DNA of 64,000 nt from Affinundibacterium nitidum (GTDB taxonomy: Bacteria > Pseudomonadota > Gammaproteobacteria > Burkholderiales > Burkholderiaceae_D), in assembly GCF_014284155.1 (NCBI RefSeq), contig NZ_JACOFZ010000001.1, positions 1-64,000 on the forward strand, in the 5' to 3' direction. Shown here in pieces: positions 59,999-64,000 of the stretch (position 1 is the first letter of the stretch; every line of letters starts with the position of its first letter). The position numbers and the translations under genes are program-made. The notes under the pieces are model-generated. The model worked only from the letters and a program-made list of their open reading frames with translations, had not been told where the DNA came from and ran no database searches.

Positions 59999-60580
59999 CT
60001 AATTTTTGGTGATCTCTGCACGATAGCCGTTGATGGCGTTTTCAAAATGCTGCATGCGTTGCAAAAGCAGGCTGCTATCAGTTTCCTTAATGAGTAGAGC
60101 GTTGTGTTCCGCTTTCATAAAACCAGCCCCGACTGCATGATCTAGGAAGCTAAGTAAATGATCATAGTAGCCGTCGATATTCAGTAGACCAAGAGGTTTA
60201 TGGTGAAAGCCTAGCTGTAACCAGGTGAACATTTCAAATAATTCTTCGAGTGTCCCCAAGCCACCTGGCATTGCGATGAAACCATCTGAGAGCTCTGCCA
60301 TTAATGCTTTTCTCTCATGCATATTGTTCACGACATGAAGTTTACTTAAGGCTGGATGCCCAACTTCACGATCAAATAGAGCTTGAGGAATGACCCCAGT
60401 GACATGTCCACCTAATCGCATCACTTCATCTGCGATGACTTTCATAAGGCCAACATCGCCACCGCCATAGACGAGGTCTAATTTATGCTCAACTAATTGC
60501 GCGGCAAGGTTTCTCGCGAGGGAGGCAAAAGCGGGCGAATTGCCCGATGCTGAGCCACAGTAAACGCAGACTGATTTCAT
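59999..60580 (-). CDS. LOG family protein (TIGR00730-type)
   Basis: A 193-residue Rossmann-fold protein: MKSVCVYCGSASGNSPAF, the VYGGGDVGLM loop and PGGLGTLEELFEMFTW with the catalytic Arg/Glu neighbourhood (HERKALM). Relatives are nucleotide 5'-monophosphate phosphoribohydrolases that can release cytokinin-type bases. I begin at ATG 60580; the longer frame to 60715 would run into the upstream TetR gene. Confidence 0.93.
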   Translation of the reverse strand: MKSVCVYCGSASGNSPAFASLARNLAAQLVEHKLDLVYGGGDVGLMKVIADEVMRLGGHVTGVIPQALFDREVGHPALSKLHVVNNMHERKALMAELSDGFIAMPGGLGTLEELFEMFTWLQLGFHHKPLGLLNIDGYYDHLLSFLDHAVGAGFMKAEHNALLIKETDSSLLLQRMQHFENAINGYRAEITKN

Positions 60581-60606
60581 AAATTGATAACGTCGAATTT
60601 GATCGA

Positions 60607-61281
60607 TTAAGACTGTTGTTTGATTTTTATAAGATAGTCTTGCGAAAGCTTCTCGAATACAACTTTGGTATTGCCGCGCAAATAGGGACTGATCTGCACG
60701 ATCACTTGATAGCAACCGCGAGCCAAGGACTCGGACATAGTCTGCAGTTCCGTATATTTGCGTGGGTTACGTACATATTCATACGATAACCAGTAAGTCG
60801 CAACCACGACCATGTTGGTTGCCAGCGCTTCGATCGTAATGTCGTCCGCTTCAAATTCACCATCCGCACGCAAACCTATGCAAAGCTCTGTCGCCACTTT
60901 GATTTTGTGATTCAAAATCTGCTTGAAAGTGAGTTCAAGTTTTCGATTGCGGGTTAAGAGATCATTGAGATCGCGGTAAAAGAAGCGATAACGCCAGATT
61001 AACTCGAAGGTGAGATGCAAGTATGTCCAAATATCTTGGATGTTGGCTTTTCGCCCTTGGGGGAAAGCCAGTTTCTTGTTGATCTCTTCCTCGAACTGTA
61101 GGAACAGTGAGTTGACGATATCTTCCTTGTTTCGGAAGTGATAATACAGATTGCCCGGAGAGATGCTCATCTCTTCAGCAATAATTGTCGTTGTGATGTT
61201 CGGTTCACCAAAGTCATTGAATAACTTCAGTGAAAGATCAAGAATTCTGTCTCTGGTACGTCTTGGTGTCTTATTTTGCAT
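60607..61281 (-). CDS. TetR-family transcriptional regulator
   Basis: A 224-residue regulator with the TetR helix-turn-helix at about residues 8-55 (RDRILDLSLKLFNDFGE, then SPGNLYYHFRNKEDIV) and a longer helical ligand/dimer domain. It lies 26 bases before the LOG-family gene on the same strand, so they may be co-transcribed. The regulated genes and ligand are unknown. Confidence 0.92.
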   Translation of the reverse strand: MQNKTPRRTRDRILDLSLKLFNDFGEPNITTTIIAEEMSISPGNLYYHFRNKEDIVNSLFLQFEEEINKKLAFPQGRKANIQDIWTYLHLTFELIWRYRFFYRDLNDLLTRNRKLELTFKQILNHKIKVATELCIGLRADGEFEADDITIEALATNMVVVATYWLSYEYVRNPRKYTELQTMSESLARGCYQVIVQISPYLRGNTKVVFEKLSQDYLIKIKQQS

Positions 61282-61446
61282 AGGGAATGCCTATTGATCT
61301 TGTCAATCGTAAATATCGATCATTTGGCAATAGAATATCATTGATTGAGGGAATCCCCCAAACATGTGCATGCAAAATTGTGTCAAAACAAAATCTTATT
61401 AATTGATTTGAGTTTGTCATCGCAGCTTGATTGTGCGACGCGAAAT
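61282..61446. other. Intergenic region between TetR and RDD genes
   Basis: This gap should hold the TetR promoter and possibly its own operator. No clear terminator for the RDD gene was found. Confidence 0.3.
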
Positions 61447-61974
61447 TCAGTTTTGCTTCGGATTGGTTTCGGGAAGGGGTAATTGGATTAGGCGTGTTTT
61501 CGCTAATTTATCGTGCAAGAATTGCTTATCTTTGTCGAAAATCGCGGTTGTTGCCCATGCCATAAAACCCAGTGCTACAGGAATAAGGAGTTGAGCATTT
61601 TTTAGGCCTAACTGATGGGCTACAATTAGTCCTGGAATGCACCAGCACCATGCTAGAAAATATCGCAGTATTGCCTTTATTAGCGGTACTTTTTGACCAT
61701 TATTGTCAACAAGCTTGATGCGCCAAGTTTGCATAGCAAGGGTTTGCCCGCTGCGACGCCAAAAGAAGACAAAGTATGTACCAATTACGAGAAATAAGAA
61801 TGCTTCACGTACGTGTCTAAGCATTAAGGCATGCTTGCTTTGGGTTGCGACATCAAAAATAAAACTAGCGAAGAAAATGACGCCAAAAACCAAAAGCGCC
61901 TCGTAGATCATACATACGAGGCGACGTTTAAGATTTGGTGTTGGGATGGGGGCGAGAGAGTTCTGTTCAGTCAC
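61447..61974 (-). CDS. RDD family membrane protein
   Basis: A 175-residue membrane protein with three to four hydrophobic segments. NLKRRLVCMIYEALLVFG and SGQTLAMQTWRIKLVD are hallmarks of the RDD family, whose function is largely unknown (some members may exchange ions). Its start overlaps the DUF3106 stop by four bases (ATGA), and it is the last gene of the sigma-factor operon. Confidence 0.92.
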   Translation of the reverse strand: MTEQNSLAPIPTPNLKRRLVCMIYEALLVFGVIFFASFIFDVATQSKHALMLRHVREAFLFLVIGTYFVFFWRRSGQTLAMQTWRIKLVDNNGQKVPLIKAILRYFLAWCWCIPGLIVAHQLGLKNAQLLIPVALGFMAWATTAIFDKDKQFLHDKLAKTRLIQLPLPETNPKQN

Positions 61975-62573
61975 TGTTTGGATGCTGTAGGTTGTGAAAT
62001 TGCTGCGGCCTCAACTTTACTTGCTGGGACCTTTTTTAAAGGTTCGATGATTGCGCCAGTTCGTTTTGATTCTGGTTGAATCGCAGTCACCGACTTTTTG
62101 GTCTTGGCCTCGGCCGCGAGTTTTTGTTTTTCTTCATCGCTCAGTTGTTGGTATTGCTGCCATTGAGCGGATTTTTGTTCGGGAGTTTTCTTTGCGGTAT
62201 TGGTAAAATTCTCGCGCGCCATCATTCGTTGCTCAGGCGTCAATTTCACCCAAGCCGCTACTCGTTCTTGAATGCGTTTTTGTTCTTCTGGCTTCATTGT
62301 GGAATATTTATCCGCGATGCCGAGCCATTTCTTTTGTCGTAAGGAATCCATCGCATCCCATTCGCCGGCTAAGGGGGATAGCGCTGCTTTTTGATCCGCA
62401 CTAAGATTGACCCATTTGACATTCGCACCCGCGGAAGTGGTTGTGGGACCAGTTGGCGCAGTGGCGTGGGCGCTCGGCGCCGACGCCACCGAAATGTAAG
62501 CAGCGATTACACCGAATGCGCCCAAGATGAAGCTATTCTTGATAATTGATGACTTGCCTCGAAGCACGTTCAT
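61971..62573 (-). CDS. DUF3106 family exported protein
   Basis: A 200-residue protein with an N-terminal signal or anchor (about residues 12-32) followed by an all-helical, charged body. Short repeats such as WVNLSADQKAAL, WVKLTPEQRMMA and YQQLSDEEKQKL recur about every 25-40 residues, which recalls the LTxxQ motifs of CpxP/ZraP-type periplasmic proteins. DUF3106 has no established function. Both ends overlap neighbouring genes by four bases. Confidence 0.88.
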   Translation of the reverse strand: MNVLRGKSSIIKNSFILGAFGVIAAYISVASAPSAHATAPTGPTTTSAGANVKWVNLSADQKAALSPLAGEWDAMDSLRQKKWLGIADKYSTMKPEEQKRIQERVAAWVKLTPEQRMMARENFTNTAKKTPEQKSAQWQQYQQLSDEEKQKLAAEAKTKKSVTAIQPESKRTGAIIEPLKKVPASKVEAAAISQPTASKQ

Positions 62574-63010
62574 TCCTCAGTTTTTTGTTCCGCTGGTTTA
62601 TTGTTGTCTTTATTTAAGTAGGCATTGAAACCATTGTCTACATAGGCGTCTGGTGGCAGTTCGTCCACTAATACAGCCGCATCAATTTCGGCAAGATCGT
62701 TAATTTGTTGCTGCTGTTCATACTCAAAAATTCCATAGAGTCCAACAGCCAGTACAATTAATGGTAGCGAAAACGCAAGTTTCTTAACCCAAGATTTCTG
62801 CGAGAATGAGGCGCCGTTATTGCCCGCTAAGATGCCGCCAAATGCCAAAGCTGCTGTAGGGCTAGACTGTTTTTGACGCGACAACGCAAGTTCACGTGCT
62901 TTCGCCAGACGCTCCAATGTTGGCTCAGAAATGCTTTCTGCAGACTCTGTCATGGCACGACGAACTTTGTAGGCAAAGTCGATATCTGCTTTTTCTTTTG
63001 CGTAAGTCAT
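62570..63010 (-). CDS. DUF3619 family single-pass membrane protein
   Basis: A 146-residue protein with a cytoplasmic, charged N-terminal region (about residues 1-74), one transmembrane helix at about 78-95 (LAFSLPLIVLAVGLYGIF) and a short acidic periplasmic tail with DELPPDAYVDNGF. This topology, together with its position directly after an ECF sigma gene, is that of an anti-sigma factor; this is inference. The start overlaps the sigma stop by four bases. Confidence 0.87.
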   Translation of the reverse strand: MTYAKEKADIDFAYKVRRAMTESAESISEPTLERLAKARELALSRQKQSSPTAALAFGGILAGNNGASFSQKSWVKKLAFSLPLIVLAVGLYGIFEYEQQQQINDLAEIDAAVLVDELPPDAYVDNGFNAYLNKDNNKPAEQKTEE

Positions 63011-63576
63011 AAGTGAACTCCTAAGGCTTTAAGTGCGGCGGCTAATGCGTGTGTTGCTCGAGAGCAATGGGTTTTGACGCTACCTTCAGAGCAACCCATG
63101 GCTAATGCTGTCTCGGCGACATCCATGTCTTCCCAATAACGCATGAGGAAGGCTTCGCGTTGACGCGTTGGAAGTTTTTTTATTTCTTCGTCGATGATGT
63201 TGAGAACTTGTTCTCTTTCTAACTTATTCTCGGTTGACTCTGCTGCTTCACTGCCTTCTTCTGGTGCGTAACTTTCCAATAAATCAAAATTGTCATCTTC
63301 TTGATTGGATGGTGTGATGTTAGAAAATAAACTCACCCAATTGTTTCTTACTTTTTCTCGGCGGAAAAAATCAAGAATAGTGTTTTGAAGGATTCTTTGA
63401 AAGAGCAAGGGAAGTTCGTCTGCAGGCTTGTCACCATATTTTTCAGATAACTTAATCATTGAATCCTGCACGATGTCGAGTGCAGATTCCTCATTGCGCA
63501 CCATGTACACGGCATGCTTGAAAGCACGACGTTCTACGCCTTCGAGAAAGTTAGATAGTTCTTTTTTTGTAGCCAT
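63007..63576 (-). CDS. ECF-type RNA polymerase sigma factor
   Basis: A 189-residue sigma factor with region 2 at about residues 10-80 (ALDIVQDSMIKLSEKYG) and region 4 at about 125-180 (LPTRQREAFLMRYWEDMD, then GCSEGSVKTHCSRA). An acidic linker of about 40 residues joins them. It heads a four-gene unit with three consecutive ATGA overlaps. Target promoters are unknown. Confidence 0.93.
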   Translation of the reverse strand: MATKKELSNFLEGVERRAFKHAVYMVRNEESALDIVQDSMIKLSEKYGDKPADELPLLFQRILQNTILDFFRREKVRNNWVSLFSNITPSNQEDDNFDLLESYAPEEGSEAAESTENKLEREQVLNIIDEEIKKLPTRQREAFLMRYWEDMDVAETALAMGCSEGSVKTHCSRATHALAAALKALGVHL

Positions 63577-64000
63577 TCGGAGGGTAGATTCTCAATGCCT
63601 TAATAAACGTCTTTCGCTTCGCAAAGATTGAGTCCTATACAGTTTTGCTGAATATGTAATAACGATAAACGCAAAAGGCAGGTATATGGTTGACTTTTCT
63701 GTATGCATGGGCAAGTTAATATCTGCATGCAAATTGGCGAAGCACCAAAAGTGCGCACATGCTAACAAAAAAAGCTCATCGTGTCCTGCGCTTTCTGGTG
63801 AAACGAACCTTTATCATCATTTTTTATTAAGTTTTCACAGAAAGTCTAACAAATATACTTGACCAAATTGTTGCATCGCAGTACTGTAGAGGCTCGTCCC
63901 AAAATCTCGGGGCACACACACTTATTGATTTGGCCCACAATGCCTTTGTCAATAAGTCACTATCAGTAAATTGTTAGTAGCTGTTTGTTCTAACCCATGC
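63577..64000. promoter_or_regulatory. Region upstream of the ECF sigma operon
   Basis: The last 424 bases hold no convincing gene. They presumably include the sigma-operon promoter. A 9-bp inverted repeat, ACTTATTGA (63920-63928) and TCAATAAGT (63949-63957), could be an operator or a hairpin. The next gene to the right is not visible. Confidence 0.45.

Follow-up and report, generated by a model that had tools for sequence, protein, structure and literature searches.

A conserved sigma-factor operon of Affinundibacterium nitidum that probably encodes a membrane anti-sigma factor and its periplasmic partner

The 64,000-nucleotide stretch of Affinundibacterium nitidum DNA analysed here (henceforth 'the window'), part of a 1.79 Mb contig in a 4.38 Mb assembly, contains an operon of four genes that encode an extracytoplasmic function (ECF) sigma factor, a single-pass membrane protein of the family DUF3619, an exported protein of the family DUF3106, and a membrane protein of the RDD family (Table 1). 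Taken as a whole, this operon probably constitutes a transmembrane sigma-factor switch composed of a sigma factor, an anti-sigma factor, and a periplasmic partner.

Table 1. Positions of the operon genes, their proposed functional parts, and the probable promoter elements, in window numbering. ORF, open reading frame; aa, amino acids.
Feature	Positions	Strand	Basis
ECF sigma factor, NF006550 (PRK09047) family	63007..63576	-	ORF of 189 aa and profile match
DUF3619 (PF12279) single-pass membrane protein, proposed anti-sigma factor	62570..63010	-	ORF of 146 aa and profile match
DUF3619 residues 2-49, two predicted cytosolic helices with conserved L35, A38, R39, and A42, proposed sigma-binding part	62864..63007	-	Alignment and low-confidence model
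DUF3619 residues 75-97, transmembrane segment (limits by eye), positive-inside, N-in/C-out	62720..62788	-	Model and charge
DUF3619 residues 110-132, acidic periplasmic tail motif D..LL.(D/E)(D/E)LP..AY.D.GF..(Y/W)L, proposed DUF3106 docking site	62615..62683	-	Conservation
DUF3106 (PF11304) exported helical-repeat protein, proposed periplasmic sensor or co-regulator	61971..62573	-	ORF of 200 aa and profile match
DUF3106 residues 1-38, N-terminal hydrophobic export signal (cleavage site by eye)	62460..62573	-	Sequence
DUF3106 residues 57-161, 18-residue helical repeats, pattern matches at 57, 93, 111, and 144	62091..62405	-	Repeat analysis and model
RDD-family (PF06271) membrane protein, GTG start, accessory member	61447..61974	-	ORF of 175 aa and profile match
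Extended -10 element TGTTAGCAT of the probable operon promoter (motif TGNTAGSAT)	63759..63767	-	Conserved upstream motif
Probable -35 element AGGACA, 17 bases upstream of the -10 hexamer	63782..63787	-	By eye

Each of the four proteins scores above the curated cut-off of its family, bearing out the labels given in an earlier reading made from the letters of the window and a list of its ORFs (the 'sequence-only reading'). The sigma factor matches NF006550 with 280.9 bits over residues 1-187 (curated cut-off 173), and the gathering cut-offs of PF12279, PF11304, and PF06271 (22.2, 24.3, and 24.1 bits) are exceeded by the DUF3619, DUF3106, and RDD ORFs with 131.4, 101.1, and 56.7 bits, respectively. 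Adjacent genes overlap by four bases at each of the three junctions; the operon and its coordinates stand as first described, with one correction to the three ATGA overlaps then reported, which read, in order, ATGA, ATGA, and GTGA. The closest matches of the sigma factor in the named collection belong to a metagenome-assembled Oxalobacteraceae bacterium (99%), to Undibacterium species (83-87%), and to an unclassified Burkholderiales bin (86%). Undibacterium pigrum (L172) is among the species in which the operon occurs.

The sigma factor belongs, together with DUF3619 and DUF3106, to a conserved module, and this conclusion is well supported. Among 200 genomes of the order sampled (which we take, from the relatives and from general taxonomic knowledge, to be Burkholderiales of the class Gammaproteobacteria in the GTDB sense), the sigma factor was found in 148, DUF3619 as defined by Pfam in 146, and DUF3106 in 147; within the 148 sigma-bearing genomes, Pfam DUF3619 and DUF3106 are each present in 145. 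The three genomes with a sigma factor and no Pfam DUF3619 match (G001, G004, and G096, with loci L169, L168, and L170) do match an iterated DUF3619 profile. Among the 52 genomes lacking the sigma factor, G123 has a sub-threshold DUF3619 match (19.7 bits), and DUF3106 occurs in G043 (E 6.8e-5) and G134. We compared the loci of 140 of the 148 genomes, leaving out G024, G031, G087, G114, G140, G174, G175, and G188: on the same strand and 3' of the sigma gene lie DUF3619 in all 140, DUF3106 in 137, and RDD in 116. An overlap of exactly four bases is possible at the sigma-DUF3619 junction in 108 of the 140 loci (86 ATGA and 22 GTGA), whereas the following two junctions allow it in 15 of 137 and 28 of 115; as the rule applied picked the start nearest the four-base position, the informative part of these counts is the contrast between junctions. 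Among the 80 best-scoring named loci, the four-base sigma-DUF3619 overlap is found in all 80, DUF3106 in 79, and RDD in 76, counted over the stretch covered; at none of the 80 do the sigma and DUF3619 genes share a reading frame across the junction.

DUF3619 is the invariant partner of the sigma factor: the three loci without DUF3106 still have it. Two of these (L147 and L156) consist of sigma and DUF3619 and lack both DUF3106 and RDD, and the third (L168) has sigma, DUF3619, and RDD. RDD is bound less tightly to the unit, being found in 116 of the 140 order loci and giving no profile match in 19 loci from the wider class. These 19 loci, picked mostly among the highest-scoring, come from a class sample of 274 genomes (at least two of them from the same order), in which the sigma factor occurs in 69, DUF3106 in 74, and both in 64. 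All 19 encode, in order and on one strand, the sigma factor, a short protein with one transmembrane segment (by eye), and DUF3106. Of the 19 middle proteins, 17 are matched by the iterated DUF3619 profile at E <0.01 (L261 and L279 being unmatched), a profile built from the 19 aligns with DUF3619 over 107 columns (probability 99, E 1.5e-18), and Pfam DUF3619 scores above its cut-off in all three middle proteins tested, in two of them over the cytosolic N-terminus only. By these profile comparisons, the class loci are a diverged version of the module and their middle gene is a remote homologue of DUF3619. Many class loci (L262, L264-L268, L270-L272, and others) encode one further protein, small and exported, whose gene stands between those of the DUF3619-like protein and DUF3106; by eye, it has a motif resembling LEFLGxWE...DP, and the one example tested had no match in Pfam.

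The arrangement goes well past anything chance would produce: co-occurrence gives Fisher p values of about 1e-42 for sigma versus Pfam DUF3619 (200 genomes) and about 2e-45 for sigma versus DUF3106 (274 genomes), both calculated with genomes treated as independent and therefore inflated by relatedness. The sequence-only reading had proposed a gene-neighbourhood survey, holding that a tendency of the two families to occur mostly apart would speak against it; they are mostly co-located with the sigma factor, and DUF3619 and DUF3106 therefore form a conserved unit with it.

In its predicted topology and in its size, DUF3619 agrees with what a membrane anti-sigma factor with a short cytosolic domain of two helices would show. 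Net charge is higher before the transmembrane segment than after it in all 136 DUF3619 proteins that are no longer than 200 residues (medians +3 and -6), and the protein is therefore read as having its N-terminus inside and its C-terminus outside; hydropathy of the segment exceeds 1.3 in 128 of the 136. Conservation peaks twice, in the cytosolic helices (M20, L35, A38, R39, and A42, in the numbering of the window protein) and in the periplasmic tail (D110, L114, L118, P119, A122, Y123, D125, and F128), with a poorly conserved linker between the two peaks. In a low-confidence AlphaFold2 model, residues 2-24 and 29-49 are helical and are followed by a linker without order, by a long helix that includes the transmembrane segment, and by a short C-terminal helix. 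The window protein contains neither cysteine nor histidine from which a zinc site could be formed. A DUF3619 variant at L156 has 239 residues, and its long tail after the transmembrane segment is, by eye, strongly acidic.

DUF3106 is built from repeats, as the sequence-only reading had noticed from short motifs in the window protein: a period of 18 residues is prominent in the DUF3106 proteins analysed, 213 from the order and 18 from the rest of the class. The consensus, L-[PST]-P-E-[QE]-R-x-R-[LI]-R-x-R-[FAY]-x-R-[WF]-x-x, was drawn up from 50 units, of which nearly all belong to loci of the class that lie outside the order. In the predicted structure (predicted local distance difference test score [pLDDT] 83, predicted template modelling score [pTM] 0.56), helices start at residues 12, 30, 48, 66, 84, and 99, and all but the last fit the 18-residue period. 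The core is positively charged in 213 of 214 rows (the window being counted twice), with a median of +8, and 15 whole DUF3106 proteins from class loci have a median charge of +22. An N-terminal hydrophobic stretch is present in 115 of 137 DUF3106 proteins. Compared with PDB sequences, the DUF3106 profile retrieved nothing beyond weak matches, all to unrelated molecules (best E 0.15). At one locus (L148, genome G064), DUF3619 and then DUF3106 are joined in a single protein of 319 residues, and in two further genomes of the same genus (G108 and G184) the matches to both families share same-strand open frames of the same length (383 and 335, respectively). This natural fusion places DUF3106 on the same side of the membrane as the DUF3619 tail.

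Upstream regions were usable at 183 of 220 loci, and 153 of them remained after thinning; 30 shuffles served as background. The motif TGNTAGSAT, formulated after viewing the sequences, occurs in 61 of the 153 regions as against a mean of 0.33 in shuffles, and the looser pattern TGNTANNNT in 107 as against 14.9; TATAAT is found in 4, versus 4.0 in shuffles. Many ECF systems autoregulate. An ECF-like promoter pattern is not enriched in the 153 regions (1 versus 1.9), and a stricter form of it occurs once, versus 0.03. We also considered the upstream motif as the mark of a regulon and rejected this, as a T-rich form of it occurs once in the whole A. nitidum genome (with one match in the reversed control too); the motif is therefore read as the promoter of the operon and not as a regulon signature. 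The promoter of the operon seems to be of the housekeeping type, and these upstream regions show no sign of ECF-type autoregulation.

The membrane topology, the two predicted helices, the four-base overlap, and the natural fusion are the grounds on which DUF3619 is very probably an anti-sigma factor and DUF3106 likely its periplasmic partner; that DUF3106 acts as a regulator through DUF3619 appears rather likely. Several results weigh against this interpretation, among them the lack of ECF-like promoter enrichment just described. A strict hydropathy rule finds one transmembrane segment in 105 of 140 DUF3619 proteins, two in one, and none in 34, and the model of DUF3619 is of low confidence (pLDDT 66, pTM 0.25). 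By mean-field coevolution, 6 of the 20 top sigma-DUF3619 pairs involve the cytosolic part, as against 7.1 expected, and the top pairs are spread over the cytosolic, linker, and transmembrane/periplasmic parts as area predicts; the alignment, with 221 paired rows (the window pair entering twice, also as L031), an effective number of 142, and 312 columns, holds too few sequences, and the analysis is read as underpowered and not as showing that contact is absent. The sequence-only reading is borne out in part: the anti-sigma role that it gave to DUF3619 is favoured by topology and size, and coevolution showed no enrichment for contact with sigma. The DUF3619 profile, compared with solved chains in the PDB, found no anti-sigma factor, returning weak unrelated matches (best E 0.026); aligned with CnrY, entered as a single sequence, it gave an hhalign probability of 1.7 over 17 columns. 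In the class sample, 10 of the 74 genomes with DUF3106 have no sigma match and 5 of the 69 with sigma have no DUF3106 match. Finally, genome G134 (locus L280) retains the C-terminal half of DUF3619 followed by DUF3106 and RDD, with no recognisable sigma factor nearby.

The N-terminal half of the G134 protein looked by eye like a degenerate sigma factor, and its sigma-profile score fell below the best of the shuffles: a sigma-DUF3619 fusion was rejected at -1.1 bits for the N-terminal part and -1.5 for the whole protein, the best of 200 shuffles reaching 4.2. One reading of this locus is that it is a remnant or a rewired module, with an N-terminus that is unrelated or very degenerate.

Among the closest known systems is CnrY-CnrX-CnrH of Cupriavidus metallidurans, a class II anti-sigma system that likewise combines an ECF sigma factor, a membrane protein with a short cytosolic region, and a separate envelope-side helical protein; CnrY is described in one study as a two-helix anti-sigma factor that wraps its sigma factor (PMC7406223). 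The sequence-only reading had matched the operon to this layout, and the match did not survive comparison: DUF3619 and DUF3106 have no detectable similarity to CnrY and CnrX (the latter pair with an hhalign probability of 0.8), the window sigma factor is related to CnrH at the ECF level only, and the gene order differs, being cnrY, cnrX, cnrH there and sigma, transmembrane protein, exported protein here. The operon would resemble CnrYXH in its working, and by the sequence features tested is no member of it. Spy, CpxP, and ZraP (LTXXQ-type proteins) share with DUF3106 export, helicity, and LTxxQ-like motifs. Against DUF3106, they gave hhalign probabilities of 1.6-3.2 and hmmsearch E values of 21-83, with CnrX not listed by hmmsearch, and a Pfam scan of DUF3106 at E up to 0.1 gave PF11304 as the sole match and no LTXXQ. 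Matches to the repeat motif number 3-8 in 178 of 213 DUF3106 proteins of the order and in 17 of the 18 others, as against two in Spy and CpxP, one in ZraP, and none in CnrX. A fold search of the DUF3106 model (at pTM 0.56, a weak part of the evidence) found no match in the PDB (best E 2.5). The kinship with CnrX, CpxP, and ZraP that had been suggested for DUF3106 thus finds neither profile similarity nor a fold match, and of its proposed role as a sensor what stands is the conserved unit and the fusion to DUF3619. In the Escherichia coli control genome, one DUF3106 family match lies below the cut-off; by purpose-built profiles, which differ from the Pfam model, it is not Spy, CpxP, or ZraP.

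RseA and RseB, of class I, pair a membrane anti-sigma factor with a periplasmic partner, and the arrangement proposed here is alike in this respect. Two differences stand beside this likeness, in that the cytosolic helices of DUF3619 are predicted to end near residue 49 and that the window protein lacks the cysteine and histidine of a zinc site. In the study cited above, class I anti-sigma domains average 101 residues, and the ones shorter than 50 were treated apart as candidates for class II (PMC7406223). A class II factor would have a short cytosolic domain of two helices ahead of one transmembrane helix; DUF3619 may be built in this way, its low-confidence model (pLDDT 66) placing helices 2-24 and 29-49 before a transmembrane helix. 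The name of the family to which the window sigma factor belongs, 'RNA polymerase sigma factor', points to no regulator or signal. The literature searched named DUF3619 and DUF3106 nowhere and gave no function for the operon; the search did not cover the ECF classification (doi 10.1093/nar/gkaa1229), which may list this ECF group.

In the switch that we consider probable, the two cytosolic helices of DUF3619 would bind the sigma factor and keep it off RNA polymerase, and a housekeeping-type promoter would maintain a constant pool of the inhibited complex. DUF3106 would dock on the acidic periplasmic tail of DUF3619 until an envelope signal drew it off or altered it; such a signal would most likely be bound by the basic repeats, candidates being anionic lipopolysaccharide intermediates or misfolded envelope proteins. 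DUF3619 would then be remodelled or cut and the sigma factor released. RDD would be an accessory membrane component. More tentatively, and with odds that we put below even, DUF3619 may found a widespread lineage, so far without a name, of minimal anti-sigma factors with two helices, while DUF3106 may be a periplasmic sensor of a new kind. It would be a basic solenoid, made of 18-residue helices and docked on the acidic DUF3619 tail, until anionic polymers of the envelope, for example lipopolysaccharide on its way through, titrate it away. If true, this would be an undescribed envelope-stress pathway in about three-quarters of the order (148 of 200 genomes) and in about one in four of the class genomes sampled (69 of 274).

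Three alternatives were considered. An unlikely one, though the strongest of the three, keeps DUF3619 as the anti-sigma factor and takes DUF3106 to be no sensor but a chaperone of the periplasm or an effector that binds the envelope, sharing no more than the operon; the signal would act directly on DUF3619, by the regulated proteolysis known for RseA-type factors. A basic repeat protein could indeed bind many anionic partners, and three of the 140 loci have sigma and DUF3619 without DUF3106; yet DUF3106 is present in the other 137, comes after sigma and DUF3619 in the class loci compared, and in one genus is part of a fusion with DUF3619. It is improbable that the four genes serve some other envelope task in which DUF3619 anchors DUF3106 and RDD at the membrane and does not touch the sigma factor. 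The G134 locus, with its half DUF3619, DUF3106, and RDD and no recognisable sigma factor, fits this picture, as does the coevolution result; against it, the sigma-DUF3619 junction is the tightest of the operon, the pair persists when DUF3106 is lost, and in the diverged family the Pfam match is confined, in two of three tested proteins, to the cytosolic N-terminus.

Least probable of all, and by our estimate very unlikely, is that DUF3106 is a sensor of the CnrX/CpxP/ZraP type and the operon a cnrYXH-like sensor of metal or misfolding by descent. The export and alpha-helical nature of DUF3106, its LTxxQ-like motifs, which are seen directly, and the sub-cut-off match in E. coli are what such descent has in its favour, but the missing profile similarity and PDB fold match, the 18-residue repeats, and the different gene order all argue against it.

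Outside the operon, a TetR-family regulator gene (60607-61281) lies downstream of RDD in the same direction and is followed by a gene for a TIGR00730-family Rossmann-fold protein of the LOG/cytokinin riboside phosphate hydrolase type (59999-60715). The TetR gene was considered as a part of the system and rejected, its profile matching in one of the 140 loci, the window's own. A cluster of opposite-strand ORFs, presumably of the acetolactate-synthase type, is present in 106 of the 140 stretches and is centred upstream of sigma; the copy of this divergent gene in the A. nitidum genome has three thiamine pyrophosphate (TPP)-enzyme domains and lies past the window end (L031:6142-7980, corresponding to 64142-65980 in window numbering). 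A convergent gene of one cluster follows the operon in 77 of 137 loci, and the member tested is LptF/LptG (L062:5651-7021). An Rfam scan of positions 61300-64000 found no family at gathering score.

If the proposed switch is right, two families of unknown function would gain a role at once. The 18-residue repeat, with no solved relative by sequence or fold search, sets DUF3106 apart as a sensor candidate, and the natural fusion and the tail motif single out residues and fragments for tests. The sigma factor found in about three-quarters of the sampled order genomes (148 of 200) would thereby become the output of a testable envelope-sensing pathway.

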